Part shown: positions 36,164 to 53,061 of the stretch, piece by piece
How positions within the stretch are numbered: the stretch's first letter is position 1
How the letters are laid out: every line of letters begins with the position of its first letter
Origin: Gemmatimonadota bacterium
GTDB taxonomy: Bacteria > Gemmatimonadota > Gemmatimonadetes > Gemmatimonadales > GWC2-71-9
Length of the DNA: 56,279 nt
Direction of reading: 5' to 3'
Assembly (NCBI GenBank): GCA_024641735.1
Contig: JAHECN010000003.1
Coordinates: 1-56,279 of the forward strand
Program-made: the position numbers and the translations under genes
The notes under the pieces: model-generated
Seen by the model: only the letters and a program-made list of their open reading frames with translations
Told to the model about the DNA's origin: nothing
Database searches by the model: none

Positions 36164-37159
36164 TCAGGTGAGTACGGTCACCTGAGCCGAGCGAGCCAAG
36201 TGACGGACCATCTGCTCCGCCGCGAGTTGATCCATTCCGAAGGAAGCCGTGGCCGCCGCATCCGCGTCGATACACCGATCGGTCTGCACGGTCACGCTGT
36301 GCCACGGTCCCGTCCGCGGGACCGCCGTGGCCGGATCCATCAAGTGATGGAACCGCCGCCCCTGCCAGTCAAAGAACTGGGCATAGTCGCCTGACGTGGC
36401 CACCGCCTGATCGGAGACTTCCAACGTCAGCGCGACGGTCTCTTCCGTGTGGGGGGAGCGAATGCCGACACGCCAGGGTTCGCCGTCGGGCGCATGCCCG
36501 AGGGCGTAGAGATCGCCGCCGACATTGACGATCGCGTGCGCCACCCCACGGTCGCGCAGACGCTGCACCGCAACGTCCACCCCGTATCCCTTGGCGATGC
36601 CACCGAGATCGAGTCGCACATCGCGCTCGGTGAACCGGACCATGTTGCCGCGACTGGTGGGCGCCACATCGACATGACGCCAGAAGCCGCGCCCCGCGAG
36701 TGGGCGCACTAGCGCCTCGGCCGGTGGCGCATGGTGGTGCGCGACATCCCAAAGCTCTACTACCGAACCGATCCCCGGGTCGAACCGTCCGTCGGTGGCC
36801 TCGGCCCACCGCAACGCAGTGGCGATCACGCTCGCCGTGGCCGCCGAGATCGGCACACCATCACGTGCAGCAGCTGCGTTGGCCCGGCCAATGTCGGAGG
36901 TGGTACGGAACCGGGTCATCGACCATTCGACGCGGCGCAACGCATCCATCGCGGCGTCAAGCGCATCCTGCGCAGCACGTTCATCGTGATGGACCACGGT
37001 CAGGTCCGCGATCGTCCCCATCACGGGCATGCTGCGCCGAGCAACAACCTGATGCCGACGCAACGCGAGGGGGAGCGATGCCACGACGAAGGCACCCACG
37101 CCAAGTCCCAGAAAATGTCGACGGGTGAGCCGTCCGGTGTCGCGCCTGTCATTGGTCAT
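36164..37159 (-). CDS. apbE: FAD:protein FMN transferase, Tat-exported
   Basis: A 331-aa ApbE that attaches FMN by a phosphoester bond to Thr in RnfG and RnfD. A twin-arginine signal (TRRHFLGLGVGAFVVASLP) precedes the domain. Family blocks RSMPVMGT, LDLGGIAKGYGVD, VNVGGDLYALG and HHLMDPATA are present, as is the metal-binding Asp near the C-terminus. It starts 11 bases inside the small Cys-rich gene at the end of the rnf cluster, which fits maturation of that complex in the periplasm. Confidence 0.95.
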   Translation of the reverse strand: MTNDRRDTGRLTRRHFLGLGVGAFVVASLPLALRRHQVVARRSMPVMGTIADLTVVHHDERAAQDALDAAMDALRRVEWSMTRFRTTSDIGRANAAAARDGVPISAATASVIATALRWAEATDGRFDPGIGSVVELWDVAHHHAPPAEALVRPLAGRGFWRHVDVAPTSRGNMVRFTERDVRLDLGGIAKGYGVDVAVQRLRDRGVAHAIVNVGGDLYALGHAPDGEPWRVGIRSPHTEETVALTLEVSDQAVATSGDYAQFFDWQGRRFHHLMDPATAVPRTGPWHSVTVQTDRCIDADAAATASFGMDQLAAEQMVRHLARSAQVTVLT

Positions 37160-37295
37160 CGTGATGCTCCCCCGTGTAGTGCGAACAACTGTTGCTGCAT
37201 CCCCCGCAGTGGCCGCCGCATCCTCGTTGTCGGACCAGCCCAAAGAGCGCGAAGAGCAGCGCCGTCGTCCCGATCGCCAGAATGGTCGACATCAT
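37149..37295 (-). CDS. 48-aa Cys-rich membrane protein, possible Rnf maturation factor
   Basis: One hydrophobic helix (ILAIGTTALLFALFGLV) is followed by a basic patch and the cluster C26-x3-C30-x2-C33-x3-C37, then a His/Asp-rich tail. Its ATG overlaps the rnfA stop by four bases, and it overlaps apbE by 11, so it is translated with the Rnf genes. The layout resembles NqrM, the small Cys-rich protein needed to place iron in the NqrD/NqrE centre, and also FeoB-associated Cys-rich proteins. A role in building the RnfA/RnfE [2Fe-2S] site is a reasoned guess. Confidence 0.7.
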   Translation of the reverse strand: MMSTILAIGTTALLFALFGLVRQRGCGGHCGGCSNSCSHYTGEHHDDQ

Positions 37296-37867
37296 CCCGC
37301 TCCCAGGCCGGCGAAGCCCATGAACGCCAGGGCGAGGCACGACGCGATGATCAGCGAGAGGCCGAAGCCTTGCGCGGCAGATGGAACATCCGCCAGATCG
37401 AGCCGCTCGCGGATCGATGCCATCAAGGCGAGTGCGAGCGTCAGGCCGAGGCCGGCGCCCACAGCAAACGCGAGACCCTGCCACAAGTCATAGCCACGAT
37501 TGGTCTGGAAAATGGCCAGCCCGAAGATCGCGCAGTTGGTGGTGATCAATGGCAGGTAGATGCCCAATGCCCGGAAGAGCGTCGGACTGAGCTTCTTGAT
37601 GGCCATTTCTACGATCTGGACCAGCGACGCGATCACGATGATGAACGAGATGATCCGCAAGTACGGTGCGTTGGCGAGAATGAACCGATTGAGGAACCAG
37701 ACCGATGTCGAGGTGATGACCATCACGAAGACATTCGCCGTACCGAGTCGGAGCGCAGTCTCCGTCTTGCTCGTGACCCCGAAGAAGGGGCAGAGCCCAA
37801 GGAATAGCGTCAACGTGAAGTTGTTGATCAGCAGCGCGGAGAGGAGAATCCAAGTCAGATCGCTCAC
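37292..37867 (-). CDS. rnfA: Rnf complex subunit RnfA
   Basis: A 191-aa protein with six membrane helices. FLGLCPFFGV near the start and LITTNCAIFG in the middle hold the two Cys that, with those of RnfE, bind the intramembrane [2Fe-2S] cluster. This passes electrons across the membrane between the flavins. GTG 37867 overlaps the rnfE stop (GTGA). Confidence 0.96.
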   Translation of the reverse strand: MSDLTWILLSALLINNFTLTLFLGLCPFFGVTSKTETALRLGTANVFVMVITSTSVWFLNRFILANAPYLRIISFIIVIASLVQIVEMAIKKLSPTLFRALGIYLPLITTNCAIFGLAIFQTNRGYDLWQGLAFAVGAGLGLTLALALMASIRERLDLADVPSAAQGFGLSLIIASCLALAFMGFAGLGAG

Positions 37868-38499
37868 GCGGCACCTTCCCCGTTCGCTCGGCCCGTGGAG
37901 CGCTTGGCATGCCATCCGAGCACCAGCATCACCACGCCGAGCGTCAGAAAGCCCCCCGGCGGGAGCACCATGATCACCCACGGTTCGAATCGCGGCCCGA
38001 GAAGATCGATCCCGAGGAGGGCGCCCGTCCCGAGCAGTTCCCGCACGGCACTCAAGAGCACCAAGACCAGCGTGAATCCCGCGGCCGTCCCGAGCGCGTC
38101 CAACAGCGAACGCTTCACCGATTGGCGTGACGCGAACGCCTCAGCGCGGCCAAGAATGATGCAGTTCACCACGATGAGGGCCACAAACGGGCCAAGCTGC
38201 TTGTGGACGACCGGCACCGCGGCTTCCAGCAGCATGTCGGCGATCGTGACGAAGGTGGCAATGATCAGCACGTAGGAGGTGATCCGCACCTCGTGCGGAA
38301 TCCATTTCTTGAGGGAGGAGACCAGCAGGTTGGATCCCAGCAACACAAAGGCCGTGGCCATCGCCATGGCCAAGCCGTTCGCCACCGAATTGGTCACGGC
38401 CAATGTCGGGCAGAGCCCGAGCATCTGGACCACGACTGGATTCTCCCGCCACACACCGCGCAAGAAGTCGTCGAACGTTGCCGGCACTTGATCGCTCAC
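37864..38499 (-). CDS. rnfE: Rnf complex subunit RnfE
   Basis: A 211-aa membrane protein paralogous to RnfA with inverted topology. The Cys ligands appear in MLGLCPTLAV and VVNCIILGRAEAFA. The GTG at 38499 overlaps the rnfG stop. A longer in-frame reading upstream lies over rnfG and is not real. It contributes two ligands to the shared [2Fe-2S] site. Confidence 0.96.
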   Translation of the reverse strand: MSDQVPATFDDFLRGVWRENPVVVQMLGLCPTLAVTNSVANGLAMAMATAFVLLGSNLLVSSLKKWIPHEVRITSYVLIIATFVTIADMLLEAAVPVVHKQLGPFVALIVVNCIILGRAEAFASRQSVKRSLLDALGTAAGFTLVLVLLSAVRELLGTGALLGIDLLGPRFEPWVIMVLPPGGFLTLGVVMLVLGWHAKRSTGRANGEGAA

Positions 38500-39161
38500 G
38501 GGGTCCCTCCCCGCAGGTACGCCTGCAGGAGCGGCTGCCATCGGCTCGTGGCGTTGTTGATGATGTTCACCACGGTGCGCGACGAAATGGTGGCGCCGGT
38601 GATGGTCTGCAGGTCGTTCGGTGTACTTGGGGCACTCTTCACACCGCGCAACGGAGTCGCCGGGCCGTCGAAGCGCGAGGTGAATGGCGTCTTCTCGATC
38701 TTGTCGCCGAGGCCCGGTGTTTCCTTGTGCGCGAGGACCTTCATGCCCAGCAATGTGCCGCGGGTCGGTTCGAGGCCGAAGATGAGGCTGATCACGTCGG
38801 AGAACCCTGGTTCTCCAGCGGTGACTGCGGCGCCGATCACGCTGTCCGAGGCCGTGTAGCCGAGGAAGACGCGCTCCAACTGACGCCGATCGGCTCCTGC
38901 CGACGGCGTCTTGGTGAGCACACCACCTTCCAAGTAGAGCGTGTCCCATCGTGCGGGCGCCTTCAGAACTTCGCGTACCGCACTTTCGACCAGTTCCGCG
39001 CGATGCGCCTCAATGCGTGGCAACGTCGCGCTGTACACCGTCACGATCAGTCCACCGGCGAGCGCGCCCGCAAATCCGAGCGTCGCCAACAGCCGCCAAG
39101 ACGGGACGGCGGGTGCGGGTTCCATCTCGGGAGGTGCGCCGTGCGCGTGACCTGCACTCAT
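38496..39161 (-). CDS. rnfG: Rnf complex subunit RnfG (FMN-binding)
   Basis: A 221-aa subunit with one N-terminal membrane helix (about 24-46) and a periplasmic FMN-binding domain. The attachment motif is at 185-191 (QTITGAT) with Thr191 as the expected phosphoester-FMN site; the position usually taken by Asp is Gln185. KETPGLGDKIE is another conserved block. ATG 39161 overlaps the rnfD stop by four bases. Confidence 0.95.
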   Translation of the reverse strand: MSAGHAHGAPPEMEPAPAVPSWRLLATLGFAGALAGGLIVTVYSATLPRIEAHRAELVESAVREVLKAPARWDTLYLEGGVLTKTPSAGADRRQLERVFLGYTASDSVIGAAVTAGEPGFSDVISLIFGLEPTRGTLLGMKVLAHKETPGLGDKIEKTPFTSRFDGPATPLRGVKSAPSTPNDLQTITGATISSRTVVNIINNATSRWQPLLQAYLRGGTP

Positions 39162-40150
39162 CCGGGCACCCTCCGGCGCGTCCCGAAGACGCGCGGTTGG
39201 GTCATTCGGTTGATGAAGGGCACCAGTGCATTCATCAAGAGGATCGCATACATCACGCCTTCCGGGAGTCCGCCCCAGAGTCGGATCACCACGACAAGTA
39301 CACCGATCCCGGCACCGAAGATCCATCGTCCCGTGTTGGTGACTGGTGAGGTCACCATGTCCGTTGCCATGTAGACCGCGCCGAGCATCAGGCCACCGGA
39401 GAAGAGCATGAACCAGGCGTCAGGATGCGTCGGGTCGACCGTGTGCATCACGGTGGCGAGGAGGGCGGTGCTCAACAGGACACTCACCGGAATGCGCCAG
39501 TTGAGATAGCCGCGCCACGCCAGGTACGCTCCACCCGCAAGGATGACCAACGCCGCCGTTTCGCCGAGCGAGCCACCGGTGGTGCCGAGGATCAATTCCC
39601 GGAGTGGGGTGAGGGTGCCCTCAAATTTGTGCAGCCCCAGCGGGGTTGCCTCGGTGAGCGCGTCCGTCTGGGCGCTGGTGAATGGGAACGCGAAGGTGTC
39701 GCCGCGGAGGGTCCAGAAACTCTGACCGGCTGCGGGCCATGTCGTGATGGCAACCGGGAAGGCCGCCTGCAAGAAGGCCCGCCCGATCAATGCCGGGTTG
39801 AAGACATTCTGCCCGAGGCCGCCAAAGACCAGTTTGCCGAAGCCGACGCCGAAGATCCCGCCCAGCACGGCCATCCAGAGTGGCAGCCCCGCCGGTAGGC
39901 AGAGCCCGAGGAGGATGCCCGTGATCACCGCAGAACCGTCGCCGAGGGTGTCGCCCCGCCCGAAGCCGCGTTCCGTCACCAGGGCACCGATCGTGGTGGC
40001 CGCAATGACCAGCAGGGCGCTGATGCCGAAACTGAAGCCCGCGACGGCGATCACCGGGAGCAGGCTCAGCACGACATGCCACATGATCCGCGGGGTGGAG
40101 TCGCGATCCTTGAGGTGCGGCGAGGCCGTGACGACGAGTGGAGTACTCAT
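39158..40150 (-). CDS. rnfD: Rnf complex subunit RnfD
   Basis: A 330-aa membrane protein with about nine helices. It carries a covalent FMN site in DALTEATPL (163-171, Thr169) and probably riboflavin. Conserved blocks include VFNPALIGRAFL and YMATDMVTSPVT. It forms part of the ion pathway of the complex. The ATG is at 40150, overlapping the rnfC stop (ATGA). Confidence 0.96.
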   Translation of the reverse strand: MSTPLVVTASPHLKDRDSTPRIMWHVVLSLLPVIAVAGFSFGISALLVIAATTIGALVTERGFGRGDTLGDGSAVITGILLGLCLPAGLPLWMAVLGGIFGVGFGKLVFGGLGQNVFNPALIGRAFLQAAFPVAITTWPAAGQSFWTLRGDTFAFPFTSAQTDALTEATPLGLHKFEGTLTPLRELILGTTGGSLGETAALVILAGGAYLAWRGYLNWRIPVSVLLSTALLATVMHTVDPTHPDAWFMLFSGGLMLGAVYMATDMVTSPVTNTGRWIFGAGIGVLVVVIRLWGGLPEGVMYAILLMNALVPFINRMTQPRVFGTRRRVPG

Positions 40151-41475
40151 GGGGCGCTCGCCTGTGCGCGGCGCAATCCGGCCTTGCTGACCTGGAAGAG
40201 CTGCGACAACGGGATATTGGAAGGACAGACATAGGAGCAGGATCCGCAGAGCATGCAATCCGAAAGATGGGCGTCGGTCATCTCGTCATAGCGGCCGACC
40301 CGCGCGAGGTCTCCGAGGAGTGACGGGTTCAGGAAGACCGGGCAGGCATCGAGGCAGCGGCCGCAATGGATGCACGGATACACACGTTCCGTGCGCGTTT
40401 CCTGGCGGGCGAGGACCACGATGCCGGTGGTGCCCTTGGTGATCGGGGCGTCGAGGTTGGCCTGGGCGAGGCCCATCATCGGGCCACCGGCAATCACTTG
40501 GGCCGCATCGGCCGTGAGGCCGCCGCACTGATCAAGCAGGTCACGCAGCTTGGTGCCAACCGGCACGATCAGGTTGGCCGGACGGGTCAGCCCATGTCCC
40601 GTGACGGTGACGATCCGCTCAATCAGGGGAAGCCCGGTCTCGAACACTTCCGCAATTGCCGCGGCCGATCCGACATTCTGTACGACCACGCCAGCAGAGA
40701 CCGGAAGTTTTCCGGACGCGACCTCGTGGCCCGTCACCGCGTGGATCAGCATCTTCTCTGCGCCCTGCGGATACTTGACCGTGAGCGGCAGGATCGTGAT
40801 GTCGAGATCGGTCGGGATGGTCCGGGTCAGGGCCTCGATGGCGTCAGGCTTGTTCCGCTCTACGCCGATCACCGCTTTGGAAACGCCGAGCGTCTGCATC
40901 ATCACGCGAATGCCGAAATGCACCCGCTTGGGGTATTCCGCCATCGTGCGGTGATCGGAGGTGAGGTACGGCTCGCATTCCGCCCCATTGATGATCAGCG
41001 TATGGATCGGAAAATCCTTGGGTGGCGCCAGTTTGACGTGGGTCGGGAAGCCGGCCCCACCGAGGCCAACGACGCCGGCATCTTGCACCGCCTGGACCAC
41101 CTCATCCACCGAGAGGCCTTCCCAGTGCGGAACCATCCGGGGGCGCGGGATCTGTGGTGCATAGGGGTCCACGAGAATCCGGACCGCCATTGCCATCGTG
41201 CCATCAGGATGCGGCCACCAGTCGACGTCCACGACCTTGCCGGCGGCGGAGGAGTGAATCGGCACGGAGATGTAGCCGTCGGCCTCTCCCACCTTGTCGC
41301 CGCGCTCGACCCGGTCGCCCACCTTGACGCAGAGTGTCGCCGGCTTCCCGGCGTGTTGCCGGAGCGGGAGGACGATCTCCTTGGGGTACGCCATCCGCCG
41401 GATCGGAAGCTGTGCCGTCAGCTCCTTCGATTCCGGCGGATGCACGCCGTGCGCGAACCCGGAAGTGAACCACAT
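40147..41475 (-). CDS. rnfC: Rnf complex subunit RnfC (NADH-binding)
   Basis: A 442-aa peripheral subunit that holds the NAD site and FMN. VGLGGAGFPTHVKL and LIINGAECEPYLTSDH are the family FMN/NADH-binding blocks. Two [4Fe-4S] motifs follow: CIHCGRCLDACP and CMLCGSCSYVCP. The N-terminal barrel (GVHPPESKELT) is present, and there is no long C-terminal repeat extension. ATG 41475 is shared with the nifJ stop (TGATG), showing that nifJ and rnfC are translated as a pair. Confidence 0.96.
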   Translation of the reverse strand: MWFTSGFAHGVHPPESKELTAQLPIRRMAYPKEIVLPLRQHAGKPATLCVKVGDRVERGDKVGEADGYISVPIHSSAAGKVVDVDWWPHPDGTMAMAVRILVDPYAPQIPRPRMVPHWEGLSVDEVVQAVQDAGVVGLGGAGFPTHVKLAPPKDFPIHTLIINGAECEPYLTSDHRTMAEYPKRVHFGIRVMMQTLGVSKAVIGVERNKPDAIEALTRTIPTDLDITILPLTVKYPQGAEKMLIHAVTGHEVASGKLPVSAGVVVQNVGSAAAIAEVFETGLPLIERIVTVTGHGLTRPANLIVPVGTKLRDLLDQCGGLTADAAQVIAGGPMMGLAQANLDAPITKGTTGIVVLARQETRTERVYPCIHCGRCLDACPVFLNPSLLGDLARVGRYDEMTDAHLSDCMLCGSCSYVCPSNIPLSQLFQVSKAGLRRAQASAP

Positions 41476-44400
41476 CAGTTGAACTTCTCCGCCCGCGCGA
41501 CCCACTTTGCCAGGTCCTTCTCCTTCGGATTCAACGGCGTGCCGGGATGGATCAGCGCCACCGGGCAGCGTTCTGCCGCCAGCACCAACTGCTGGAAGGT
41601 GCCGGCCGTTGCATCCTTGATGTAGGCCTGCTTCACGTCGTTGTAGGCGAACATCCGGCTGTTGAGGTTGGTGCACTCGTTGCACGTGGTGCAGTTGGCG
41701 GAATCGATGTACGCCTCAAGGGTGAGGGGTGCGTCGTCCCCGGCCTCAGGCGCAACCGGAGCGGCCGTCGGTGTGGCAACGGGAGCCGATGCCGCCGGTT
41801 CTGGGGCGCTGGGTGGTGTGGCGGCCACGGGTGTCGGAGCAACTGCAGCCTCTGCTATGCCGTGGCCATTGCCAGAGGATGCCGTGGCCGCCGAGGCCGG
41901 CAATGTTGCCAGGAGGTCGGCGATCACGGCACCACCGCCTTGCTTCATCAATCCTTCGACGAGTCGCTTGGCGATTTCCCGTGGATAGTTGGCGCGCATC
42001 GCTGCGAGTGACGCATCGAACTCGGCGCGCAACGTGGCCTCGCGCTGGGCGTACGCGGTGTCCAGATCTCGTGCGACGAGATCGCGAACACTCTCCGACA
42101 CTTCGACGCCCGCGAGCTGCCGCAACTGCGACCAGTACTCGAGTCGCTCCTGCGCCAGAGTTGCCATCGCTGGTGCCACACGCATCCGGCGCAACCGGCG
42201 TTCCCGGGTCACCCCATGAATGAATGCCACCTTCCCCTCACGTTCGTCGAACGGGATGGTGATGTACTCATGGAATGGCACCATCGCATCGTCCCACTGT
42301 TCGGGCGGTACTTCCGTGAAGTGCTGCTTGAATCGCGTCTCAGTGGCCGCCCAATCCGCGATGGTCAGCGGTAACGTCATGGTCTGTTCGGCGCCGTCTT
42401 CGTCGACATACGCGAGGGAGTACTCGGGCCAATCGGTGTCGACTGACGGGTTGCCATCCAGGCTCATGCAGTCGGCGAAGGACGGGCCCCCATCGGGGTC
42501 ATAGCTGAAGAACGGGAAGGCCCGGCTCTCCAACGAGAGGCGCGCCGCGTGCTGTGCCCAGTCGTCGGCGAGGCCGTGCTCCACCGGGCATGGCGTGTAG
42601 ATGTTGAAGATCGCCGGGCGCCGCTTCTGAAGGCCCTTGAGCACGCCGCTGAGCAGGTGGGACGCCGCTGCCTGCGAGGATTGGTGGACGAAGACCCCGC
42701 GGTGTGCGATCGCCAGCAGGCCGAGTTCCTTGCGCACTTCGGTCTTGCCGGACTGCGCCTTGCCGAAGGCCGACATGTCGGCGACCTGTCCCGTGAACCC
42801 GCTGGTGCACGCCTGTCCACCGGTATTGGAATAGACCTGTGTGTCGAGGACGACGACCCGGATCGGCTTTCCGGAGGCGAGGAGTCGTGAGAGGTTCTGG
42901 AAGCCGATGTCGAGCATCGCCCCGTCGCCGCCCATCGCGACAATCGGAGGGCAGAGATGGAATTCGTCATCCGTGAGCTGCTGCCAATCGAGGCGATTGA
43001 GCTCCGGTTCCATCGTGGCCGCGTCATAGCTCCCCTCGGCCAACGCGCGTGCGCGCCGAATGGCGATGAAGCCGTCGGTCATCTTCCGCATGTGCGCTTC
43101 GAAGAGGCCGATCGCGATCGATGGCGAATCCTGGAAGAGGTGGTTCACCCATGGGAAGGGGTACGGGTTGTACGGGTACGTGCTTCCCCAGACGGAGGAA
43201 CAGCCCGTCGAGTTGGCCATACCCAGCGACGCGCGTCCCTTGCCACTCGGTCCCTTGACGTAACGCCACTGCAGGTCCGTGATGGCGCGAAGCGATTCGT
43301 TGAGCAGTGCCAGTTCGGCGCGCTTGGCGTCCGCCATCGGGACTGCGACGGAATCTTTCGAGGCCTCCGCCGCAGCCAGGTCCACACCTGAGGCCACCAG
43401 CGCGCGGGCCTTGGCGTCGAGTGTGGCAATCAGGTCGTCGAGTTCACGAACCTGCGCGGCGACGCGCGGGGCCATCATCGCGTGAATCGCCGACACAATC
43501 AGGTGGACGGTCGTCTTCTCACCGCACCCCATGCAGGCGCCGTCGCCGCCGACCATCGAGCGGTAGGTCTCCTTCTTGAGCAACATCGAGGAGAGAACGC
43601 CAATCCCCTCGCTCATGTCGGCAATGTTGATGAATCGATCATTGGTGTCCGGAAGGTGCTGCCAGACGGCCCAGTTGCGACGCAGTTCCGCGAGGTTGGC
43701 GTCGTCCTGCTTGACGGTGATCAGCGCACCATCCGGGCAGACCTCCACACAGAGGTTGCATCCTTTGCACGCTTCCGGATTGACCGTGATCGACAGCAGG
43801 CCACCACCACCCTTGGACTTCGACTCGTGGGTGTCGAAGAAGGGCCGGGTCCGTGCCAGCGGGAACTCGGCCAATTGGCTCTGAATCACGGCGTGTTCCA
43901 CATCCGTGGCGGCACGACGCTCTGCGTCCCACGACATCTTGGCGGCCACCGCCTGATATCCCTGCGCGAAGGCGTCGGAGACGCTCAGGCTGGAATCCTT
44001 GCCGAGGAGGGTGTGGGTTTCACGCGCCCAGTGCTTGACGATCGGTCGCACCTTCCCGAACGTTGCGCCGTTCGTGGTGCTCCGAATCACCGCGTCGATG
44101 ACTTCTTCGGCGCTGTTCACGACGCCGGGGATCGCCGAGTCGGGACACTGGACCCAGCACTGCGAGCAGCCGGTGCACTTGTCGGCGATGAACGCCGGGA
44201 CCTCAAGGCGCACACCGCTCATGTCTCGCACGCTGCTGGTCACCGCGGGAATGGCGCTGATCGCAGCAAAGGGGTCGGCGATCCCGTCCTCGCCGAGGGT
44301 GCACATGGAGCAGACCTGCTCCCAAAAACGCCCCTCATGCCCGATGCCCTCAGCGGCATCATTGGCGGACATCAGGACCGGCATCTGGGGGACTTCCCCG

Positions 44401-46529
44401 CGCTCGTCGGGGATCTCCGTGCTGGACCCGATCACTTCGTGGAGCTCGTCGTAGCCGCGACGGATGACGCGCAGGTTGTCCTGGACCACCTGGTCGCCAC
44501 GATGCCCGAACTTCTTGGTGAGCTGCTTGGTAATGCCCTTGAAGAGCGCTTCTTCCGACACGCCTTCCTTTTCGCGCAGCGGTGAGGTGCGGAAGAAGGC
44601 GCCCATGAAGGCGGCACCCTGCATCCGGTACCGCAGCTCAGCGTCCGAGGCCTCGCTCATCGCGATCGCGAACGCGTCCAGCACATAGAGGCGGATCTTG
44701 CGATCGATGATCGTGCGGCGCGCCTTGGCCGGCAGCGTCTGCCAGAATTCGTCCGGCGGAAGATCGGACTGGATGACAAAGACGCCATGGTCCGCGAGCC
44801 CGGCGAGCGGGTCACTGTGCCGGAACACATTGGGGTCGGGCGACAGCACGACATCCACGTACTTGAGCTCACAGTTGAGCCGAAGCGGTTCGTGCGCGAG
44901 CACGGCGTAGAAGGTCGTCGGCTGCCCCTTCTTCTCGGAGCCGTACTTCGGATTGGCCTTCACCTGGAGGCCGAAGAGCTCGAACGCCGTCATCGCAACA
45001 TTCTTGCCCATGGTGATGGCACCCCAGCCACCGACCGAATGGATGCGCAGCGCGGTTGAACTTGCCGGAAGCATGTTGACCGGTGCCGCCGGTGTGAGCG
45101 ACAGCTCCGTCAGATGCGGGTAATGATCCACCAACTCTTCTTGCCAGATCTGGAGCTTCGGTGCCCGGGTCGCCTGACGGACGAAGTCGATGCCGAGATA
45201 GAACTGCCGCTGACGTCCGCCGTCCGGCAGCATGTTCTCGACGGCAGCGACGATGTCCCCCGGCTGCAAGTCACGACTGCCAAGGCCGAAGCAACCGCTG
45301 AAGAAGTCGGGCACCTGTTCCGGTCGGAGCGGGCGAACGCCAGCGTGGGCATCCGGAGAGCGGGAATTCTCCACGCCCTGTGCCATCGCCGCGCGAATCT
45401 CCCGAAGCAACGGCGCGTCCACGGCGAGCGGTTGATCGACGCGCTCCAACACGGTGACGCCCTTCTTGCCGGCAAGGAGCGCCGTGAGGACGTCCGCCGG
45501 GAAGGGGCGGAACATGGTCAGGTGGACGACGCCGACTTTCAGCCCGCGAGTCGCCCGGAGATGGTCGGCCACGACTTCCGCGTTGGAGCAGACCGACCCC
45601 TGGCCGAGGATGACATACTCGGCGTCATCGAGGCGATACCCCATCGCTCGGGCGTAGCGCCGACCGGTCAACGCGGCGTACTCTGCAAAGGCGCGTTCCG
45701 ACAGCTCACGAATGTGATCGAAGTAGAAAGGCCGTTGCGCCGCCACGCCCTGTGCGTAGCTGTCCTGATTCTGCACCGTCCCCAGCATGGCCGGGTAGTC
45801 GAGGTCAAACATCTCCGGGATCCGCCGACGCGTGGCACCGAACACCATGCGTTGGGCGGGAGTCGGGGAGTCGATCAGGTCGCTCGGATCCCCGAGGTAC
45901 TCCTTGATCAAGGCAGGCTCGGGAAGGCGCAGCGACTCGATGACGTGACTGGTGAGAAAGCCATCCTGGGCCACCAGCCCGGGATTCAGCGACAACTCAG
46001 CGATGCGGTGTGCGATCAACGTGAGATCCGCGGTCTCCTGCACATCCTTGGCAAAGAGCTGGAAGAATCCGGTATCGTCGACGGCGTGATAGTCATCGTG
46101 CCCGGCGTGCACGTTCAGCGCGTGCTTGGTCATGGCGCGCGCGGCGACGTTGAGCACGTAGGTCAGGCGCTTGCCGACCGCCGCGTAGAGCGACTCGTGC
46201 ATGTACGCGATACCCTGACCGCTCGAGAAGTTGGTCGAACGGAGCCCTGCCATGCTCATGCCCGCGGTGACCGCGGCGGCAGCATGTTCGCCTTCCGGCT
46301 CGAAGAAGAGCAGGCGTCGGCCGAACACGTTTGGGGTGCCCTCGGCGACAGCCGCCGCCCATCCCTCACCCATCTGCGTGGATGGCGTGATCGGATAGGC
46401 GCCGGCGGCTTCGCTGGCGCCGGTCTCCATCGCGACGACCGCGGAACTGCCGTCGAGCGCCACCAGTTTGCCGGGGTACTTCACGGTGGCCGCCTGGGGG
46501 ACCGCGGCTTCCTTCGTCTTGAAAAACAT
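41475..46529 (-). CDS. nifJ: Pyruvate:ferredoxin oxidoreductase, very long, with C-terminal ferredoxin-like domain
   Basis: A 1684-aa homodimeric-type PFOR; usual length is about 1200. It oxidises pyruvate with CoA to acetyl-CoA and CO2 and reduces ferredoxin. In order, it has a pyrimidine-binding domain (AYPITPSTQMGEGWA), a γ domain (GGWGAITMGKNVA), two [4Fe-4S] motifs (CTGCSQCWVQCP and CKGCNLCVEVCP) and a TPP domain (GDGACMGCGEKT, MGGDGAMLDIG). After the core comes a helical stretch, a Pro/Ala-rich linker (about 1544-1605) and a cluster motif Cys1613-x2-Cys-x2-Cys-x35-Cys1655-Pro. The gene shares single bases with rnfB and rnfC, so it is an integral part of the rnf operon. Confidence 0.95.
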   Translation of the reverse strand: MFFKTKEAAVPQAATVKYPGKLVALDGSSAVVAMETGASEAAGAYPITPSTQMGEGWAAAVAEGTPNVFGRRLLFFEPEGEHAAAAVTAGMSMAGLRSTNFSSGQGIAYMHESLYAAVGKRLTYVLNVAARAMTKHALNVHAGHDDYHAVDDTGFFQLFAKDVQETADLTLIAHRIAELSLNPGLVAQDGFLTSHVIESLRLPEPALIKEYLGDPSDLIDSPTPAQRMVFGATRRRIPEMFDLDYPAMLGTVQNQDSYAQGVAAQRPFYFDHIRELSERAFAEYAALTGRRYARAMGYRLDDAEYVILGQGSVCSNAEVVADHLRATRGLKVGVVHLTMFRPFPADVLTALLAGKKGVTVLERVDQPLAVDAPLLREIRAAMAQGVENSRSPDAHAGVRPLRPEQVPDFFSGCFGLGSRDLQPGDIVAAVENMLPDGGRQRQFYLGIDFVRQATRAPKLQIWQEELVDHYPHLTELSLTPAAPVNMLPASSTALRIHSVGGWGAITMGKNVAMTAFELFGLQVKANPKYGSEKKGQPTTFYAVLAHEPLRLNCELKYVDVVLSPDPNVFRHSDPLAGLADHGVFVIQSDLPPDEFWQTLPAKARRTIIDRKIRLYVLDAFAIAMSEASDAELRYRMQGAAFMGAFFRTSPLREKEGVSEEALFKGITKQLTKKFGHRGDQVVQDNLRVIRRGYDELHEVIGSSTEIPDERGEVPQMPVLMSANDAAEGIGHEGRFWEQVCSMCTLGEDGIADPFAAISAIPAVTSSVRDMSGVRLEVPAFIADKCTGCSQCWVQCPDSAIPGVVNSAEEVIDAVIRSTTNGATFGKVRPIVKHWARETHTLLGKDSSLSVSDAFAQGYQAVAAKMSWDAERRAATDVEHAVIQSQLAEFPLARTRPFFDTHESKSKGGGGLLSITVNPEACKGCNLCVEVCPDGALITVKQDDANLAELRRNWAVWQHLPDTNDRFINIADMSEGIGVLSSMLLKKETYRSMVGGDGACMGCGEKTTVHLIVSAIHAMMAPRVAAQVRELDDLIATLDAKARALVASGVDLAAAEASKDSVAVPMADAKRAELALLNESLRAITDLQWRYVKGPSGKGRASLGMANSTGCSSVWGSTYPYNPYPFPWVNHLFQDSPSIAIGLFEAHMRKMTDGFIAIRRARALAEGSYDAATMEPELNRLDWQQLTDDEFHLCPPIVAMGGDGAMLDIGFQNLSRLLASGKPIRVVVLDTQVYSNTGGQACTSGFTGQVADMSAFGKAQSGKTEVRKELGLLAIAHRGVFVHQSSQAAASHLLSGVLKGLQKRRPAIFNIYTPCPVEHGLADDWAQHAARLSLESRAFPFFSYDPDGGPSFADCMSLDGNPSVDTDWPEYSLAYVDEDGAEQTMTLPLTIADWAATETRFKQHFTEVPPEQWDDAMVPFHEYITIPFDEREGKVAFIHGVTRERRLRRMRVAPAMATLAQERLEYWSQLRQLAGVEVSESVRDLVARDLDTAYAQREATLRAEFDASLAAMRANYPREIAKRLVEGLMKQGGGAVIADLLATLPASAATASSGNGHGIAEAAVAPTPVAATPPSAPEPAASAPVATPTAAPVAPEAGDDAPLTLEAYIDSANCTTCNECTNLNSRMFAYNDVKQAYIKDATAGTFQQLVLAAERCPVALIHPGTPLNPKEKDLAKWVARAEKFN

Positions 46530-47359
46530 TATGCTGCCTCCGAGACCGGTGCACGGGTGAACTGTGCGCCGGAGAGCCAAACGATTGCGTTGGTTGGACA
46601 TCGGGCGACGGCGCGGGCATCCGCGAGCGCCGCCAGTTCCTGATTCACGACTGCCACTCCGCTGGCGATGCTGATCAATCCCGGCTCCGCGTCCTGCACG
46701 CACTTGCCGCATGCGGTGCACGCGACCTCGCACTGGGAGAGGATGTCGTCACCGACCATCAGGTTCTTGCACTGCACCAGGAGTGGCTGATCGACGGGGA
46801 GAATGGTGAACAACGTCTTGGGGCATGCCTCCACGCAGTCGCCGCACGCGGTACAGGCCACGGGGTCGACAACCGGGATGCCGTGGGCATTCATGTGGAT
46901 CGCGCCGAAGTCGCAACTGCGCTCGCAGTCGGCGAGACCGAGGCAGCCCCAGGTGCAGCCCTTGCCGCCCCCAGCGACCGCGGCGGCGGCTCCACAGGTC
47001 GCCACGCCACGGTATTCCGCGCGTTGGATCGCCACGTCGGTGCCGCCGGCACAGAGCAGGCGGGCCACCCGTTTCACGGCGACGCCGGCGTCCACCCCGA
47101 GGTAGCCCGCGATCTGGTCGCGCGAGGCCTCGGTGGCCACCGAACATTGGGAGACTTGGATGGTCCCTGCGACTGCCGCCTCCGCGAACGAACGACAGCC
47201 GGGGAGGCCGCATGCACCGCAGTTCGCGCCGGGAAGAATCGACGTGACGACGCCGATGCGGGGGTCCTCCCACACGGTGAGATTGGCGTTGGCGAGTGCG
47301 ATCAGGATGCCGAACGCCAGCCCTACACCACCAAGAATCAGGATCGCGTCGAGCACCAT
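46529..47359 (-). CDS. rnfB: Rnf complex subunit RnfB (ferredoxin-oxidising)
   Basis: A 276-aa polyferredoxin anchored by one N-terminal helix. An N-terminal [4Fe-4S] motif Cys47-x2-Cys50-x4-Cys55-x16-Cys72 is intact. Further sets are 135/139/145/149 and 169/172/175/179, plus 214/217/220 paired with 254. The last set has VQDAEPG where a fourth Cys is normal, and the final motif keeps only one Cys, so one cluster seems to have been lost. RnfB receives electrons from ferredoxin, here probably from the adjacent PFOR. The nifJ ATG lies in its TAA stop. Confidence 0.94.
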   Translation of the reverse strand: MVLDAILILGGVGLAFGILIALANANLTVWEDPRIGVVTSILPGANCGACGLPGCRSFAEAAVAGTIQVSQCSVATEASRDQIAGYLGVDAGVAVKRVARLLCAGGTDVAIQRAEYRGVATCGAAAAVAGGGKGCTWGCLGLADCERSCDFGAIHMNAHGIPVVDPVACTACGDCVEACPKTLFTILPVDQPLLVQCKNLMVGDDILSQCEVACTACGKCVQDAEPGLISIASGVAVVNQELAALADARAVARCPTNAIVWLSGAQFTRAPVSEAA

Positions 47360-47381
47360 GCTCCGCTCCGGTGTTGGCGCG

Positions 47382-48386
47382 TCAGGCGCCGTCCTGAAGC
47401 CCGGTCTGGCCGAGCAACCACTGCGTGACGCGATCGACGGCGTCCTCTGCCCCGATCGCAGGTGTGCCCGTACCGTCGCGTGCCGGGACCGAGAACGGGG
47501 TCCGCGCGAGATCGGTGAGCAGTCGAACATCCTCTGCCATCTGCCACACGCTGATGCCGTCGATCGGCGCCTTGGGTGCCACGGCGTTCGTGCCAATCGA
47601 CAGACGCTGCCACCCTTCGGCGCCGCCACGCGGATCGTGGGTGAAAGTCGTGCACCCTTCCGGCACCATCGCCACGATCGCGGGTCCGTCGAAGGAGGCC
47701 ACCTGATCCAATCCGGCGCCGTCGACGGTCTGCATCACGAAGGTCCCCGGCGTGATGCACCGGGCGAGCGGGGCGGGCGCACAGGGCCCGCTGACGACCA
47801 ACACCAGCTTGGCGCGACCATCGGCGAAGTCGGTGAGGGCACCAGAGTGGAGATCCGCCCCACGCAGGACGATCACGAGCGGCGGGGCAAAGCGTCGTTC
47901 CGCGCGATTCCAGGTGCGGAACTCCGCTGGATCCAGCAGCCGATCGTGGGTCGCGGCGTCGTAGCGTCCGGCGCGAATCAATTCCGCCAACACGATCGCG
48001 CCAAACGCCTGTCCCGCACGCGCCAGTGCCGCGTCGATCGTGGCACCGAGTTTCCGCCCTTCGGTGACTTCGGTGACAAAGAGGTCCGAGGCCTCGCCGT
48101 TGACTGCCTCCAGCGTCTGCACGGCACGATCGAGCATCGCGAGCGATGCCGGATCGCCGGATCCGAGCGGCGGAAAGAGTGTGGCGAAGCGCCCGGCATC
48201 GATGCGACCCGTCGCGAACTCGCCCAGCTCAAACGCCGCACGCGATGCGCGAATGGCGGGGCTGGCATGGTGTGCGTCAAGGAAGCCACTCGCCTGCGTG
48301 AGTGCGCCCTCCACAGCCGCACGAAACTCGGCAATCGGTTGGGCCAGCGCGTCGAGCGCGACGGCGACCCGAGGATCAGACAGCAT
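47382..48386 (-). CDS. Unknown 334-aa protein between korB and rnfB
   Basis: A soluble, Ala-rich protein with no signal peptide, no membrane helix and no cluster-binding motif (Cys only in SGPCAPAPLARC and EGCTTF). The first half is helical; the second half alternates β-strands and loops (PPLVIVLRGADLHSGALTD, KLVLVVSGP, GPAIVAMVPEG). The ATG lies 11 bases inside korB, and rnfB starts 22 bases after its stop, so it is embedded in the electron-transfer operon. It could be a scaffold or assembly factor linking the oxidoreductases with Rnf. No family is recognised. Confidence 0.78.
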   Translation of the reverse strand: MLSDPRVAVALDALAQPIAEFRAAVEGALTQASGFLDAHHASPAIRASRAAFELGEFATGRIDAGRFATLFPPLGSGDPASLAMLDRAVQTLEAVNGEASDLFVTEVTEGRKLGATIDAALARAGQAFGAIVLAELIRAGRYDAATHDRLLDPAEFRTWNRAERRFAPPLVIVLRGADLHSGALTDFADGRAKLVLVVSGPCAPAPLARCITPGTFVMQTVDGAGLDQVASFDGPAIVAMVPEGCTTFTHDPRGGAEGWQRLSIGTNAVAPKAPIDGISVWQMAEDVRLLTDLARTPFSVPARDGTGTPAIGAEDAVDRVTQWLLGQTGLQDGA

Positions 48387-49332
48387 ACTTGTCGAACTCC
48401 TCTTCGAGGCGCGTATTGCGCTCCGTCGGCGTGCGCGGGGTGGTGCGCCGGGTTTCCTCGTATCTCGGCCGGGACGGATCGCGGAAGAAGACGCCGAGAT
48501 GAATTCGGTCGTCGGACTCTGCGTAGTGCCGCGCCGCCGCGAGATCACGGGGGTCGTGATGAATTTGAGTCTTGTAGATCTTCTCGATCTCCGGCACGAT
48601 GACGCCGTCATCGTGCACCAGCAGCGCGATCTGTGAGGGATCGCGCACAGCAGAGGCAAAGATCTCGGGTGTAAACACCGGGCAGCGCTGGAGAATCCGG
48701 ACGAAGCTGGTTCCCTTGTGCTGGTAGGCCGCCCGGAGGGTGGCATACAAGTGTGCCGGGACCCACTCCGCGGTCTGCGCCACAAACGACGCATTGGTCA
48801 CCCCGAGGGAGACCGACAACGGATTCATCGCCGGGAGGTAGCTCCCGCGGGGCTGGGTGTTGCTCACCGTGCCCTGCGGAGTCGTCGGCGACGTCTGCTT
48901 CTTGGTCAATCCGTAGATGGCGTTGTCGAGCATCATCACCGTGAGGTCGACATTGTATCGCAGCGCGTGAATCCAGTGCGCGGCGCCGATCGAGGTGCAG
49001 TCGCCATCACCCATGACCGTGAACACGCTCAGTTCCGGCCGATGCAACTTGATGCCGGTGGACACCGGCAACGCCCGGCCGTGAATGCCGTGGAAGCCAT
49101 AAGTCTTCAGATAGTGCGGGAACCGGCTGGAACAGCCGATGCCGGAGACGAAGACGGTCTGTTCCGGTACCAGTTGTTCGGCGGCGAGGAGCCGCTGCAC
49201 CGCCGTCAGGATGCCGTGGTCACCACAGCCGGCACACCACCGGGCCCGCGCGCCTTCGTAACTGTCCATCCCGTAGGGCTCGTCGCTCCCTTTCCGCTGG
49301 ATGACATGGAGCAGTTCGCAGGAGAGACTCAT
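48376..49332 (-). CDS. korB: 2-oxoacid:ferredoxin oxidoreductase β subunit
   Basis: A 318-aa TPP-binding subunit. RWCAGCGDHGILTAV and the TPP/Mg motif GDGDCTSIGAAHWIHALRYN identify it, with YGLTKKQTSPTTP following. No separate δ-ferredoxin subunit is encoded. It pairs with the fused γ/α subunit just upstream (four-base overlap). It probably oxidises 2-oxoglutarate or another 2-oxoacid to the CoA ester with reduction of ferredoxin; the substrate cannot be fixed from sequence. Confidence 0.93.
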   Translation of the reverse strand: MSLSCELLHVIQRKGSDEPYGMDSYEGARARWCAGCGDHGILTAVQRLLAAEQLVPEQTVFVSGIGCSSRFPHYLKTYGFHGIHGRALPVSTGIKLHRPELSVFTVMGDGDCTSIGAAHWIHALRYNVDLTVMMLDNAIYGLTKKQTSPTTPQGTVSNTQPRGSYLPAMNPLSVSLGVTNASFVAQTAEWVPAHLYATLRAAYQHKGTSFVRILQRCPVFTPEIFASAVRDPSQIALLVHDDGVIVPEIEKIYKTQIHHDPRDLAAARHYAESDDRIHLGVFFRDPSRPRYEETRRTTPRTPTERNTRLEEEFDKYAV

Positions 49333-51239
49333 GCTGCACCTCCAGAGAGCACGCGTTCGCGGATGGCGGTGACAATCGAACCAGGGCGCAGGGGCTCACC
49401 TGGCACTCGGGTCCAGCTGTCGACATCGACCAGCGTGGAGGAGCGCAGCAGCATCGCCATCTGGCCACGCCGGCGGTTCTCCTCAGTGATGTAGGGTGCG
49501 TCAGGGTCATCGGAATAGTTGATCTCGACGGCGACCACCTTGGTGAAGCGCTGCAGGATCGCCTTGATCCCAGGCTCCAATGGCGAGAGGAAGCGCAGGT
49601 GGAGTGACGAGACCTTCAACCCATCGGCCCGCACCCGATCCACGGCCTCCTCAATGGCACCCTTGGTGCTTCCCCAACCGACGACCAGCAGATCCCCGCC
49701 CTCCTCGTCGCCATAGACCACGGGTGGGGTGAGCACGCTCTGCAGCACCGCCAGCTTGCGGCTCCGCATGGCGGAGGAGTGCTGATGAATGCCGGAACTG
49801 TAGGCGACTTTGCTGCGCTCGTCGTGCGAGAGCCCGGTCAACGTGAACATGCCACCGGGTTGGCCCGGGACGATGCGCCGTGAAAGCCCGGTCTCCTCCT
49901 CCCAGGCGTACGGGAGGTCGGAGTCGCCCACGGGGGCGAGGTCGATCGGCGCAGCCTGCCACTGGGAGTCGAGCGTGGGACGCGGGTACGGCGCCACACC
50001 GGTGGCGAGATTCGCGTCGGTCAGCACCATCACCACTGCGCGGAAGGTCTCGGCGATGCGTCGCGCCGTGATCATCACGTGGAAGCACTCTTCGATCGTC
50101 GCGGGGGCGACAATCACGTGCGGTGCATCTCCCGGCTGTCCGAAGAGCGCGGCCAGCAAATCCGACTGCTCCACCTTGGTCGGGAGTCCGGTGCTCGGTC
50201 CGCCGCGTTGGACATCGACCACCACGAGTGGCGTTTCCGTCATGATCGCGAGGCCGAGGAACTCCGTCTTCAGCGCGAGCCCTGGTCCGGAGGTGATCGT
50301 GAGGGCGACTTTTCCGGCGTACGAGGCGCCAATCGCCACGCCGGCGGCTGCGATTTCGTCTTCCGCCTGGTGGACCACGCCACCGAAGCGTTCGAAGACC
50401 TCACTCAGGTAGTGCGACACCGAGGTGGCCGGGGTGATCGGGTACATCGCGCAGAGCTCGAAGCCCGCCGCGATGGCTCCCATTCCGATGGCCTCGTTGC
50501 CGTTCATCACCACCAGCGGTGTGTCGATCGGTGCAGGCGGCACATCAATCCGAAAACCGATGTGTTCCTGAGCCCACTGGTAGCCGAGATTGACGAGCGA
50601 CACGTTGGAGTCATAGACGGCTTCGCTCTTTTTGCGAAACGCGGTCGCGATTTGATCGCGGATCCGCTCCATGTCGCGGTCATAGATGTAGGCGAGCATC
50701 CCGAGTGCGAACATGTTCTTCCCCTTTCGGGGATTCTCCACCAGGGTCAGGCACTGCTCCTGCATCGGCACCGGGATAATGCGATACTCTCGCGTCGACA
50801 GCTCCTCCATCGCCGCCTCCCATGCCGCCACGATGGCGGGGTCTTGGGAGGTCGCCCACATCTCTTCGATGAGCAGGATCGCGTCCGGCGCGAGGGCGCC
50901 GACACGGTGCCGCGCCAGCAAGGCCTGTTCGTTGAAGGCCACGACCAGGTCGGTTTGGTCGCCCCAGTTGGTCACCGGACCGGCGCCGACACGAATGCGA
51001 TTGCCGCTGGCACCCTCCGGAACGCGTGGAGGTGGCTGCACTTCGGCCGGAATGATCTCGACGGTCCAGATCCCGTTTCCCATTTTGGCGGAAACGGCGG
51101 CGAAGATCTGCCCGCACTTCTGTGCGCCCTCGCCAGAATCCGAGACGATTTCGATCGTGTGTTCGCGAACGCGCAAATGTGCCGGAGGCGCCCCGGTCTG
51201 GGGGGCCACGGCACTCGTGGTTCCTGCGGAAATAGTCAC
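49329..51239 (-). CDS. korA: 2-oxoacid:ferredoxin oxidoreductase, fused γ-α subunit
   Basis: A 636-aa protein. The γ domain covers about 20-200 (SGEGAQKCGQIFAAVSAKMG), and the α domain about 225-600, with AMYPITPATSVSHYL, the Glu in AEDEIAAAG, and VDVQRGGPSTGLPTKVEQSD. It forms the oxoacid enzyme with KorB. The GTG at 51239 is preceded by a GAGG-containing stretch. It is the first gene of the KorAB-Rnf-PFOR operon, so the operon promoter should lie in 51240-51506. Confidence 0.94.
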   Translation of the reverse strand: MTISAGTTSAVAPQTGAPPAHLRVREHTIEIVSDSGEGAQKCGQIFAAVSAKMGNGIWTVEIIPAEVQPPPRVPEGASGNRIRVGAGPVTNWGDQTDLVVAFNEQALLARHRVGALAPDAILLIEEMWATSQDPAIVAAWEAAMEELSTREYRIIPVPMQEQCLTLVENPRKGKNMFALGMLAYIYDRDMERIRDQIATAFRKKSEAVYDSNVSLVNLGYQWAQEHIGFRIDVPPAPIDTPLVVMNGNEAIGMGAIAAGFELCAMYPITPATSVSHYLSEVFERFGGVVHQAEDEIAAAGVAIGASYAGKVALTITSGPGLALKTEFLGLAIMTETPLVVVDVQRGGPSTGLPTKVEQSDLLAALFGQPGDAPHVIVAPATIEECFHVMITARRIAETFRAVVMVLTDANLATGVAPYPRPTLDSQWQAAPIDLAPVGDSDLPYAWEEETGLSRRIVPGQPGGMFTLTGLSHDERSKVAYSSGIHQHSSAMRSRKLAVLQSVLTPPVVYGDEEGGDLLVVGWGSTKGAIEEAVDRVRADGLKVSSLHLRFLSPLEPGIKAILQRFTKVVAVEINYSDDPDAPYITEENRRRGQMAMLLRSSTLVDVDSWTRVPGEPLRPGSIVTAIRERVLSGGAA

Positions 51240-51506: not shown

Positions 51507-52586
51507 TCAGCGTCCGCGCGCGTCGATTGGCCACCGTTCGATGACGTCGTGACGCCGGACGCCGACCGCTTCATCAAAGAGGTGCGTGACGATGCAGACA
51601 TGGTTCGGAATGATGCGGACCTGCTCACCAATGGTCGGCCGCCAGCTGCTCTGCGAAAGCTCGAGGGTGCCGTGTTCCTCCGACATCGCACGGACGTAGA
51701 CCTCCGGTCGATCGAGCAGCACCCCAAAGCCTGGCACGTCCGCGCCGCGAATCGGCTCGCGTCCGAGCGCCTTGGTGCCAGCGTCCACAATGGCCTGACC
51801 AGGCACCGCCGTGCTCACCACGGTTGCGAGGACGGTGAGCGCGCAATCGTCCCAGCCGCACGCCCCGATCTCGGCGGTGGTCCGGTCGTTGTAGACCGAC
51901 GTGCCAGGCCGAATCTCGGTGAGTCCGGTGATCCGATGCGAATCCCAGAGGGTCGGCGTGGAACCGCCACTGACCACTATCGGCGGCATTCCGGCTCGCG
52001 TCAGCGCGTCAATGGTAGATCCGAGATCGCGATTCAATACCGCGAGCGCATCATCAACACCCGGTCCACGGATATGTCTCGGATAGAACGCCACCCCGAG
52101 GTATTCGAGACCAGGTTGCTCGGCGACATGGCGGGCCAGCGTGACTGCCTCTGCCGGGGTGCCAACTCCCACCCGACCCATGCCGAGATCGAGTTCCACC
52201 AACACCCCGATGGGACCCCCACCACCGGCGGCGGCAGCGATCAGGGCGTTCACCGCCTCTCGAGAATCGAGCATCACCCGGAGCCTGGTGTGGCGAGCGA
52301 GTTCCGCCACGCGTGCGGCCCGCGCATGCCCAACTGGGGGGTATGCCAGGAGGATGTCGTCAGTGAGCGTGCGCATCACTTCGGCTTCGCGCGGGGTGGC
52401 GCAGGTGAAGCCCGTCGCGCCGGCATCGAGTTGCGCGCGACCGATGCGGAGGGACTTATGGGTCTTCACGTGCGGACGGAGCGTCAGCGCATGCGCCGCG
52501 GCATAGTCAGCCACGCGGGTGATGTTGGCGTCCAGTCGATCGAGGTCGACCAGCGGGATGGGAGTCGGGAGGGAGTCAGTCTGCAT
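51507..52586 (-). CDS. D-threonine aldolase-like PLP enzyme
   Basis: A 359-aa fold-type III (alanine-racemase-like) enzyme. The Schiff-base Lys lies in LRPHVKTHKS, and other family blocks are LVELDLGMGRVGV and VSGGSTPTLW. The C-terminal PNHVCIVTHLFDE carries the His-x-Cys metal site of D-threonine aldolase/D-serine dehydratase relatives. It likely cleaves or dehydrates a β-hydroxy-D-amino acid. ATG 52586 is the start; an in-frame upstream reading overlaps the next gene and is not credible. Confidence 0.9.
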   Translation of the reverse strand: MQTDSLPTPIPLVDLDRLDANITRVADYAAAHALTLRPHVKTHKSLRIGRAQLDAGATGFTCATPREAEVMRTLTDDILLAYPPVGHARAARVAELARHTRLRVMLDSREAVNALIAAAAGGGGPIGVLVELDLGMGRVGVGTPAEAVTLARHVAEQPGLEYLGVAFYPRHIRGPGVDDALAVLNRDLGSTIDALTRAGMPPIVVSGGSTPTLWDSHRITGLTEIRPGTSVYNDRTTAEIGACGWDDCALTVLATVVSTAVPGQAIVDAGTKALGREPIRGADVPGFGVLLDRPEVYVRAMSEEHGTLELSQSSWRPTIGEQVRIIPNHVCIVTHLFDEAVGVRRHDVIERWPIDARGR

Positions 52587-52618
52587 CAGGGCGCATCGGA
52601 GGAGAGTGATCGGCGAGG

Positions 52619-52900
52619 CTACGTCGTGAGCACCTTCCACGGCTGTACGCCTGCCTCGAACGCCATCGGTCCCCCGTAGCAGGTGCAGCGGGAGAGGCCG
52701 GGGGCGAGCGCGTCGTTCCACGCGGTCACCATGAAGCCCTTCTTGTCGCCGCGCACATCGACATGCCCGGAATAGCGCAGTTCCGGGAATCGCTCGCGCA
52801 GGTCCGCCATGCACTCGGCGTAGTGCCCATGTTCCCGGAGATACGCCTCCTGGGCAGTGATGAGATGATTGACGTCGTCGCGCAGCGAATCCAGATCCAC
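52619..52900 (-). CDS. Small protein resembling a type IV pilin soluble domain
   Basis: A 93-aa protein starts at GTG 52900. LITAQEAYLREHGHYAECMADL resembles the region just after the N-terminal helix of minor pilins and related proteins. The Cys residues in AECMADL and SRCTCYGG could form a disulfide. The hydrophobic N-terminal helix of true pilins is absent, so it is either a cytoplasmic relative or a truncated one. It lies 32 bases upstream of the D-threonine-aldolase-like gene. Confidence 0.55.
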   Translation of the reverse strand: MDLDSLRDDVNHLITAQEAYLREHGHYAECMADLRERFPELRYSGHVDVRGDKKGFMVTAWNDALAPGLSRCTCYGGPMAFEAGVQPWKVLTT

Positions 52901-53061
52901 AGGGCACTCGTGTCGGGGGATGCCATCAAATATATCCCATGACGACGCGCGGCCTCGAAATCCGACCGCAGCGCTTCCGATTCGGGCCGATCAATTCCGC
53001 AACTTTTCCGGGCGTGGCCGAGTATATCTCCTTGCGGGAATCACCCCGCCCCGGAGGTGCC

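Follow-up and report, generated by a model that had tools for sequence, protein, structure and literature searches.

Rnf complexes are commonly assumed to be supplied from a common pool of soluble ferredoxin. Three types of rnf operon have been described (PMC5736913). The rnf(B)CDGEA type of Chlorobi/Bacteroidetes encodes six subunits that carry flavin, Fe-S and intramembrane Cys motifs, places rnfB before rnfCDGEA and has apbE nearby. The same features are found in the locus described here, a minus-strand operon of twelve genes at positions 36164-51239 of a 56,279-nt stretch of DNA from a Gemmatimonadota bacterium (GCA_024641735.1, contig JAHECN010000003.1, positions 1-56,279; hereafter the window, whose positions serve as coordinates throughout). 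In contrast to the rnf(B)CDGEA type, a 1684-aa 2-oxoacid oxidoreductase is encoded between rnfB and rnfC, and korA, korB and a third gene stand in front.

The inserted enzyme has the domain order, the thiamine pyrophosphate (TPP) and CoA domains, the three 4Fe-4S clusters and the catalytic residues in common with the NifJ-type pyruvate:ferredoxin oxidoreductases (PFORs) of Desulfovibrio africanus (1b0p) and Moorella (6cin), but it is approximately 450 residues longer than these solved enzymes, scores below the NCBI equivalog cutoff and ends in a linker and a ferredoxin domain. This domain belongs to the same single-cluster Fer4_13 family, with the same Cys pattern, as ferredoxin I of D. africanus, the species of the structurally best-known PFOR; there it is a separate protein, whereas here it is covalently tethered. 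A PFOR with a C-terminally fused electron acceptor is known from the pyruvate:NADP+ oxidoreductase (PNO) of Euglena and Cryptosporidium, in which a flavodoxin/cytochrome P450 reductase (CPR)-type domain passes electrons to NADP+. A fused C-terminal acceptor is thus shared with PNO, but in the present enzyme the acceptor is a ferredoxin, which is linked to an ion pump in the membrane.

Additional genes in rnf operons have precedents, and the original prediction, by which nothing but the six subunits and maturation genes is encoded in known rnf operons, was too strong. The rnf operon of Melioribacter includes a lipoprotein and an unknown gene (PMC3534657), and in Endoriftia genes of the reductive tricarboxylic acid (rTCA) cycle are clustered with Rnf (PMC11636981). 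The Endoriftia cluster contains KOR genes, as does the present locus, but these are korABCD, accompanied by ATP-citrate lyase and Hdr-Flx, and are thought to work reductively; the part of that paper available to us does not report NifJ inside the rnf genes. A 2025 Rnf review (PMC12174285) mentions neither Gemmatimonadota nor Planctomycetota, and its searched passages name no gene for an oxoacid oxidoreductase within an rnf operon. In the open-access literature, where absence is weak evidence, no nifJ inside an rnf operon, no Gemmatimonadota Rnf and no PFOR-ferredoxin fusion was found.

This work describes the NifJ-Rnf locus and its conservation in some bacteria of soil and water. We propose that it probably encodes a dedicated module that would pass electrons from a 2-oxoacid over a tethered ferredoxin to RnfB and on to NAD+, with ion pumping.

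Gene order and conservation

The twelve genes are present on the minus strand in the originally predicted order, namely korA-korB-unknown-rnfB-nifJ-rnfC-rnfD-rnfG-rnfE-rnfA-Cys-rich-apbE. At the rnfB/nifJ junction (...GCA TAATG TTT...) and the nifJ/rnfC junction (...AAC TGATG TGG...), start and stop codons overlap by one base each, and the list of open reading frames gives longer frames with GTG starts for rnfB and nifJ, which are upstream extensions of the exact genes.

Conservation was assessed in 101 Gemmatimonadales genomes. NifJ was detected in 29 of them; 26 have a strong rnfC match, and all 26 are among the 29. The three NifJ-encoding genomes without rnfC (G082, G086 and G095) carry unlinked copies. 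Relatives lacking the nifJ insertion, which the original prediction named as evidence against itself, were not encountered in Gemmatimonadales, as NifJ is carried by 26/26 rnfC-bearing genomes. Gemmatimonadota and several metagenome-assembled genomes (MAGs) of Planctomycetota retain the order korA-korB-unknown-rnfB-NifJ-rnfC-D-G-E-A, in most cases with apbE behind it. Chance juxtaposition is excluded because every close relative locus that is long enough to judge keeps the arrangement. In a sample of 149 Planctomycetota genomes, approximately 41 have a strong rnfC match and eight a close, linked-type NifJ, so that Rnf without NifJ is the rule there.

Two isolates also carry the block. In Gemmatirosa kalamazoonensis it is located on a 1.1-Mb plasmid (NZ_CP007129, L098), and apbE has moved to a place between rnfG and rnfE. 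On megaplasmid pPP1 (NZ_AP025293, L097) of Persicobacter psychrovividus (Bacteroidota), NifJ directly precedes rnfCDGEA, with rnfB further downstream; korAB was not found. The location on a megaplasmid of approximately 1.1 Mb in both isolate records hints at horizontal spread, in a searched collection that consists of plasmids and is biased accordingly. Two loci assigned to Vicinamibacteria (L066) and Solirubrobacteraceae (L061) encode an RnfC with 77-81% identity to that of the window; these loci may be contigs of Gemmatimonadota that were mis-binned.

The NifJ-like enzyme and its ferredoxin tail

The nifJ-like gene (41475..46529, minus strand) encodes a 2-oxoacid:ferredoxin oxidoreductase of 1684 aa with a C-terminal extension. 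Its Pfam domains POR_N, PFOR_II, POR, Fer4 and TPP follow the order of single-chain PFORs, and the protein aligns with 6cin and 1b0p. The positions aligned with the catalytic and cluster residues (Thr31, Glu64, Arg114 and Asn996, in the numbering of the D. africanus enzyme, and the proximal and ferredoxin-domain Cys) are invariant in 41 linked and eight unlinked copies. On TIGR02176, the equivalog model of canonical PFOR, the protein scores 418.7 bits against a curated cutoff of 911.35, and canonical NifJ was rejected as a strict family label on this ground. By its sequence it is a divergent PFOR-type enzyme, and because of this divergence its substrate is a prediction. The flavodoxin/CPR-type reductase domain of PNO has no Pfam match at the C-terminus, where linker and ferredoxin are found.

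The catalytic part is followed by a folded region, a long helix, an Ala/Pro-rich linker (residues 1543-1604; 41718..41903), a single-cluster ferredoxin domain of 57 residues with the pattern C-x2-C-x2-C...C (residues 1605-1661; 41547..41717) and a C-terminal peptide (residues 1662-1684; 41478..41546), all on the minus strand. The linker is variable among relatives (42-88 residues, alanine plus proline fraction 0.45, mean pairwise identity 0.30) and has a low pLDDT in the AlphaFold model, as in a disordered tether. Mean pairwise identity rises to 0.70 in the ferredoxin domain and to 0.76 in the C-terminal peptide, the most conserved part of the tail. The ferredoxin domain matches Fer4_13 (PF13370, 27.3 bits, cutoff 24.5, E 6.2e-6), and its four Cys ligands are present in 38, 38, 38 and 37 of 41 aligned rows, the remaining rows being gapped there. 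In the PDB, the last 71 residues match a single sequence, that of D. africanus ferredoxin I (1dax, E 0.0039), and Foldseek returned weak ferredoxin matches only. Judged by sequence and model, the tail looks like a tether, with a variable Ala/Pro linker and a conserved ferredoxin and C-terminus, and residues 1662-1684 are a candidate docking motif.

The presence of the tail coincides with linkage to Rnf. Among copies with a C-terminus that the contig covers completely, the ferredoxin tail is found in 43/43 Rnf-linked copies versus 0/11 unlinked copies (Fisher p 1e-11, a value that ignores ancestry); one more unlinked, tail-less copy with little flanking sequence was set aside. Within the NifJ tree, an unlinked, tail-less copy from a 99%-complete genome without rnfC (L028) is nested in the linked clade, beside a linked copy (L021), with 100% SH-aLRT support, and it terminates directly after the long helix. 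A copy that is 53% identical (L139/L116), with no clear rnfC, also terminates early. Two genomes (G160 and G135) hold both NifJ paralogues and have the tail on the linked copy only. Genome G148 encodes an ordinary Rnf on another contig and has a tail-less NifJ; the tail therefore follows operon linkage rather than the mere presence of Rnf.

Some loci depart from this architecture. In G082 (Gemmatimonadales, no rnfC), a NifJ of the linked clade (L129, 7111-11613) stops just before the linker, an apparent joint loss of the ferredoxin arm and Rnf. Two MAGs from permafrost (palsa) have NifJ split into two or three frames (L055 8001-12922, from G063, and L050 3-4688), which may reflect sequencing error, a frameshift or a split enzyme. 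A NifJ-like protein in several separate pieces, the first of approximately 660-710 aa, is encoded in two Planctomycetota loci with no Rnf nearby (L140 7363-10895 and L142 6054-9559).

Rnf subunits, KorAB and the 334-aa protein

RnfA, B, C, D, E and G are all encoded together, as identified by Pfam and NCBIfam matches, and all genes of the window in this section lie on the minus strand. RnfB (276 aa; 46529..47359; PF04060, Fer4 and NCBIfam RnfB models) has 20 conserved Cys, of which 19 are invariant across 45 relatives. RnfC (442 aa; 40147..41475) scores 515.7 bits on TIGR01945 (cutoff 245.95) and contains the CxxCxxCxxxCP motif twice, corresponding to two 4Fe-4S motifs, and a Nuo51-type FMN domain (PF01512, PF13375). 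The flavinylation-type motif TEAT is intact in RnfD (330 aa; 39158..40150; PF03116) and the flavinylation motif TGAT in RnfG (221 aa; 38496..39161; PF04205), while the GLCP and NC motifs are intact in both RnfE (211 aa; 37864..38499) and RnfA (191 aa; 37292..37867), each matching PF02508. The subunits bear the motifs expected for a working complex. Downstream of rnfA, a Cys-rich membrane protein of 47 aa is encoded (37149..37292), which has a sub-threshold match to FeoB_associated (19.9 versus 27 bits), is in place in many relatives and possibly has a role in cluster maturation, by analogy to NqrM. The operon ends with apbE (36164..37159; PF02424, E 2.6e-74), encoding an FAD:protein FMN transferase with a twin-arginine-like N-terminus.

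At the other end, korA (49329..51239) encodes a 2-oxoacid:acceptor oxidoreductase alpha subunit of 636 aa (a gamma-alpha fusion; PF01855, PF01558), which passes the subfamily cutoff of TIGR03710 (529.9 bits, cutoff 482.75). The beta subunit KorB (318 aa; 48376..49332) is below its own cutoff (TIGR02177, 235.7 bits, cutoff 261.9), yet has a clear TPP/PFO_beta match (PF02775, PF12367). KorA and NifJ are the only POR_N proteins in the host assembly. In locus L060 (144-2658), another korA-korB pair, which is divergent (32% and 51% identical), lies shortly before the operon. Upstream of korA in the window, a gene on the same strand (51507-52907) encodes alanine racemase N-terminal and D-serine dehydratase-like domains.

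The gene between korB and rnfB (47382..48386) encodes a protein of 334 aa without a Pfam or NCBIfam match. Its AlphaFold model has a pLDDT of 86, and a Foldseek search with this model gave nothing under E 0.001. With VIA-align, matches 1-10 were all TPP domains of PFOR or oxalate oxidoreductase, the best having a Z of 8.4 over 181 residues, where a Z of about 8 alone is middling. A profile of the protein is colinear with the NifJ TPP domain, with a profile-profile score of 41.3, where 100 column shuffles gave 22.9 at most. Using this profile, hmmsearch found NifJ copies (best E 2e-10, in a set of 49 sequences) and did not find KorB; a KorB copy was rejected as its identity because the profile matches NifJ but not KorB. 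The invariant columns contain no Cys and no GDG...N motif for the TPP cofactor, and for this reason the protein is read as catalytically dead. It appears to be a paralogue of the NifJ TPP domain, degenerate and without cofactor, and NifJ itself is encoded two genes on. The gene occurs in 28 of the 101 relatives, namely in 26/26 with rnfC and in G020 and G050, whose contigs end within korA-korB-unknown-rnfB. Such a dead-enzyme partner is worth study in itself.

A proposed 2-oxoacid-to-Rnf module and alternative explanations

In the proposed module, the NifJ-like enzyme would oxidize a 2-oxoacid, most likely pyruvate, with CoA on TPP. Electrons would cross the three internal 4Fe-4S clusters to the ferredoxin domain tethered at the NifJ C-terminus, which would then swing to RnfB. 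From there they would take the established internal Rnf path, via the RnfA/E cluster and the flavins of RnfG and RnfD to RnfC and NAD+, with export of Na+ or H+. KorAB, encoded in front, would add electrons of the 2-oxoglutarate type to the same route, and the 334-aa protein may act as a structural or docking subunit. Direction, substrate, ion pumping, electron delivery to RnfB and the part played by the 334-aa protein are what we infer. The dedicated 2-oxoacid-to-Rnf route of the original prediction gains from the built-in ferredoxin domain, the 26/26 linkage and the distribution of the tail (43/43 versus 0/11), whereas pyruvate is only the predicted oxoacid of a NifJ that is below the canonical PFOR cutoff. 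More tentatively, NifJ, KorAB, the dead paralogue and Rnf might be stably assembled in the membrane into one supercomplex, which would be an ion-pumping 2-oxoacid:NAD+ oxidoreductase with pyruvate and 2-oxoglutarate as direct substrates and a ferredoxin that never leaves and works as a swinging arm.

Several observations weigh against the dedicated module. The NifJ tree requires three linkage changes, of which at least two are forced by strongly supported branches, so the independent transitions are few. The NifJ-linked RnfC sequences group in a single clade (ultrafast bootstrap 96, SH-aLRT 91); the outgroup sampling of this tree is limited, and its Persicobacter branch is long. The ferredoxin domain is modeled with moderate confidence (pLDDT ~73). 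The one-base overlaps, originally interpreted as translational coupling of rnfB, nifJ and rnfC, are not kept in relatives, where the spacing between matched stretches ranges from 0 to a few hundred bases while adjacency and order are kept; coupling as a conserved trait was rejected because these intergenic gaps vary. Finally, E2-type components of 2-oxoacid dehydrogenases are encoded in all 101 genomes, so that the Rnf-linked module as the sole oxoacid route was rejected. As the host keeps these components, the module may be used under low-oxygen conditions or for energy saving.

The same E2-type components would cover the oxidative direction if electrons flowed the other way, with NADH and the ion gradient reducing the tethered ferredoxin through Rnf and thereby driving the NifJ-like enzyme and KorAB in the reductive, carboxylating direction, as pyruvate and 2-oxoglutarate synthases of the rTCA cycle. 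That cycle has two ferredoxin-dependent carboxylases, which are precisely PFOR and KOR; Rnf is reversible, and the rTCA genes of Endoriftia cluster with Rnf (PMC11636981). No autotrophic pathway was seen in the examined part of the window, and we consider reverse flow unlikely. A search for ATP-citrate lyase domains gave no match, but none was obtained in any control either, which makes it uninformative. It is quite improbable that the operon reflects co-regulation only, with NifJ and KorAB reducing a soluble ferredoxin pool, Rnf oxidizing that pool and the C-terminal ferredoxin serving other partners. Diffusible ferredoxin is what the classical physiology of Rnf bacteria relies on, and KorAB, being untethered, depends on either a soluble carrier or the NifJ domain; however, the tail tracks operon linkage and not the mere presence of Rnf, as in G148, and the gene order is kept across phyla.

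A 2-oxoacid other than pyruvate as the substrate of the NifJ-like enzyme would otherwise be compatible with the dedicated module. This is suggested by the low TIGR02176 score (418.7 versus 911.35 bits), by a length well beyond that of the solved PFORs and by the E2-type dehydrogenases that the genomes also have. Against it, the closest solved structures are pyruvate enzymes and the equivalents of Thr31, Glu64, Arg114 and Asn996 are invariant, and we regard another substrate as possible but somewhat doubtful. The chance that the locus is an assembly artefact or a fortuitous juxtaposition is practically negligible. Many relatives are MAGs, and L066 and L061 may be mis-binned, but the arrangement recurs in dozens of assemblies and on isolate replicons (Gemmatirosa NZ_CP007129 and Persicobacter pPP1), and the isolate sequences refute this explanation.

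The dedicated module gives Rnf a testable role in Gemmatimonadota, for which we found no published account in the open-access literature, and the NifJ copies that are unlinked from Rnf and lack the ferredoxin arm offer a natural experiment. If the proposal is true, the module would recover the energy that separates the oxoacid couple from NADH and is lost by pyruvate dehydrogenase. It would then be a heritable unit that brings along both oxoacid oxidases of its own and a covalently attached ferredoxin, and thus a direct connection from fuel to pump.

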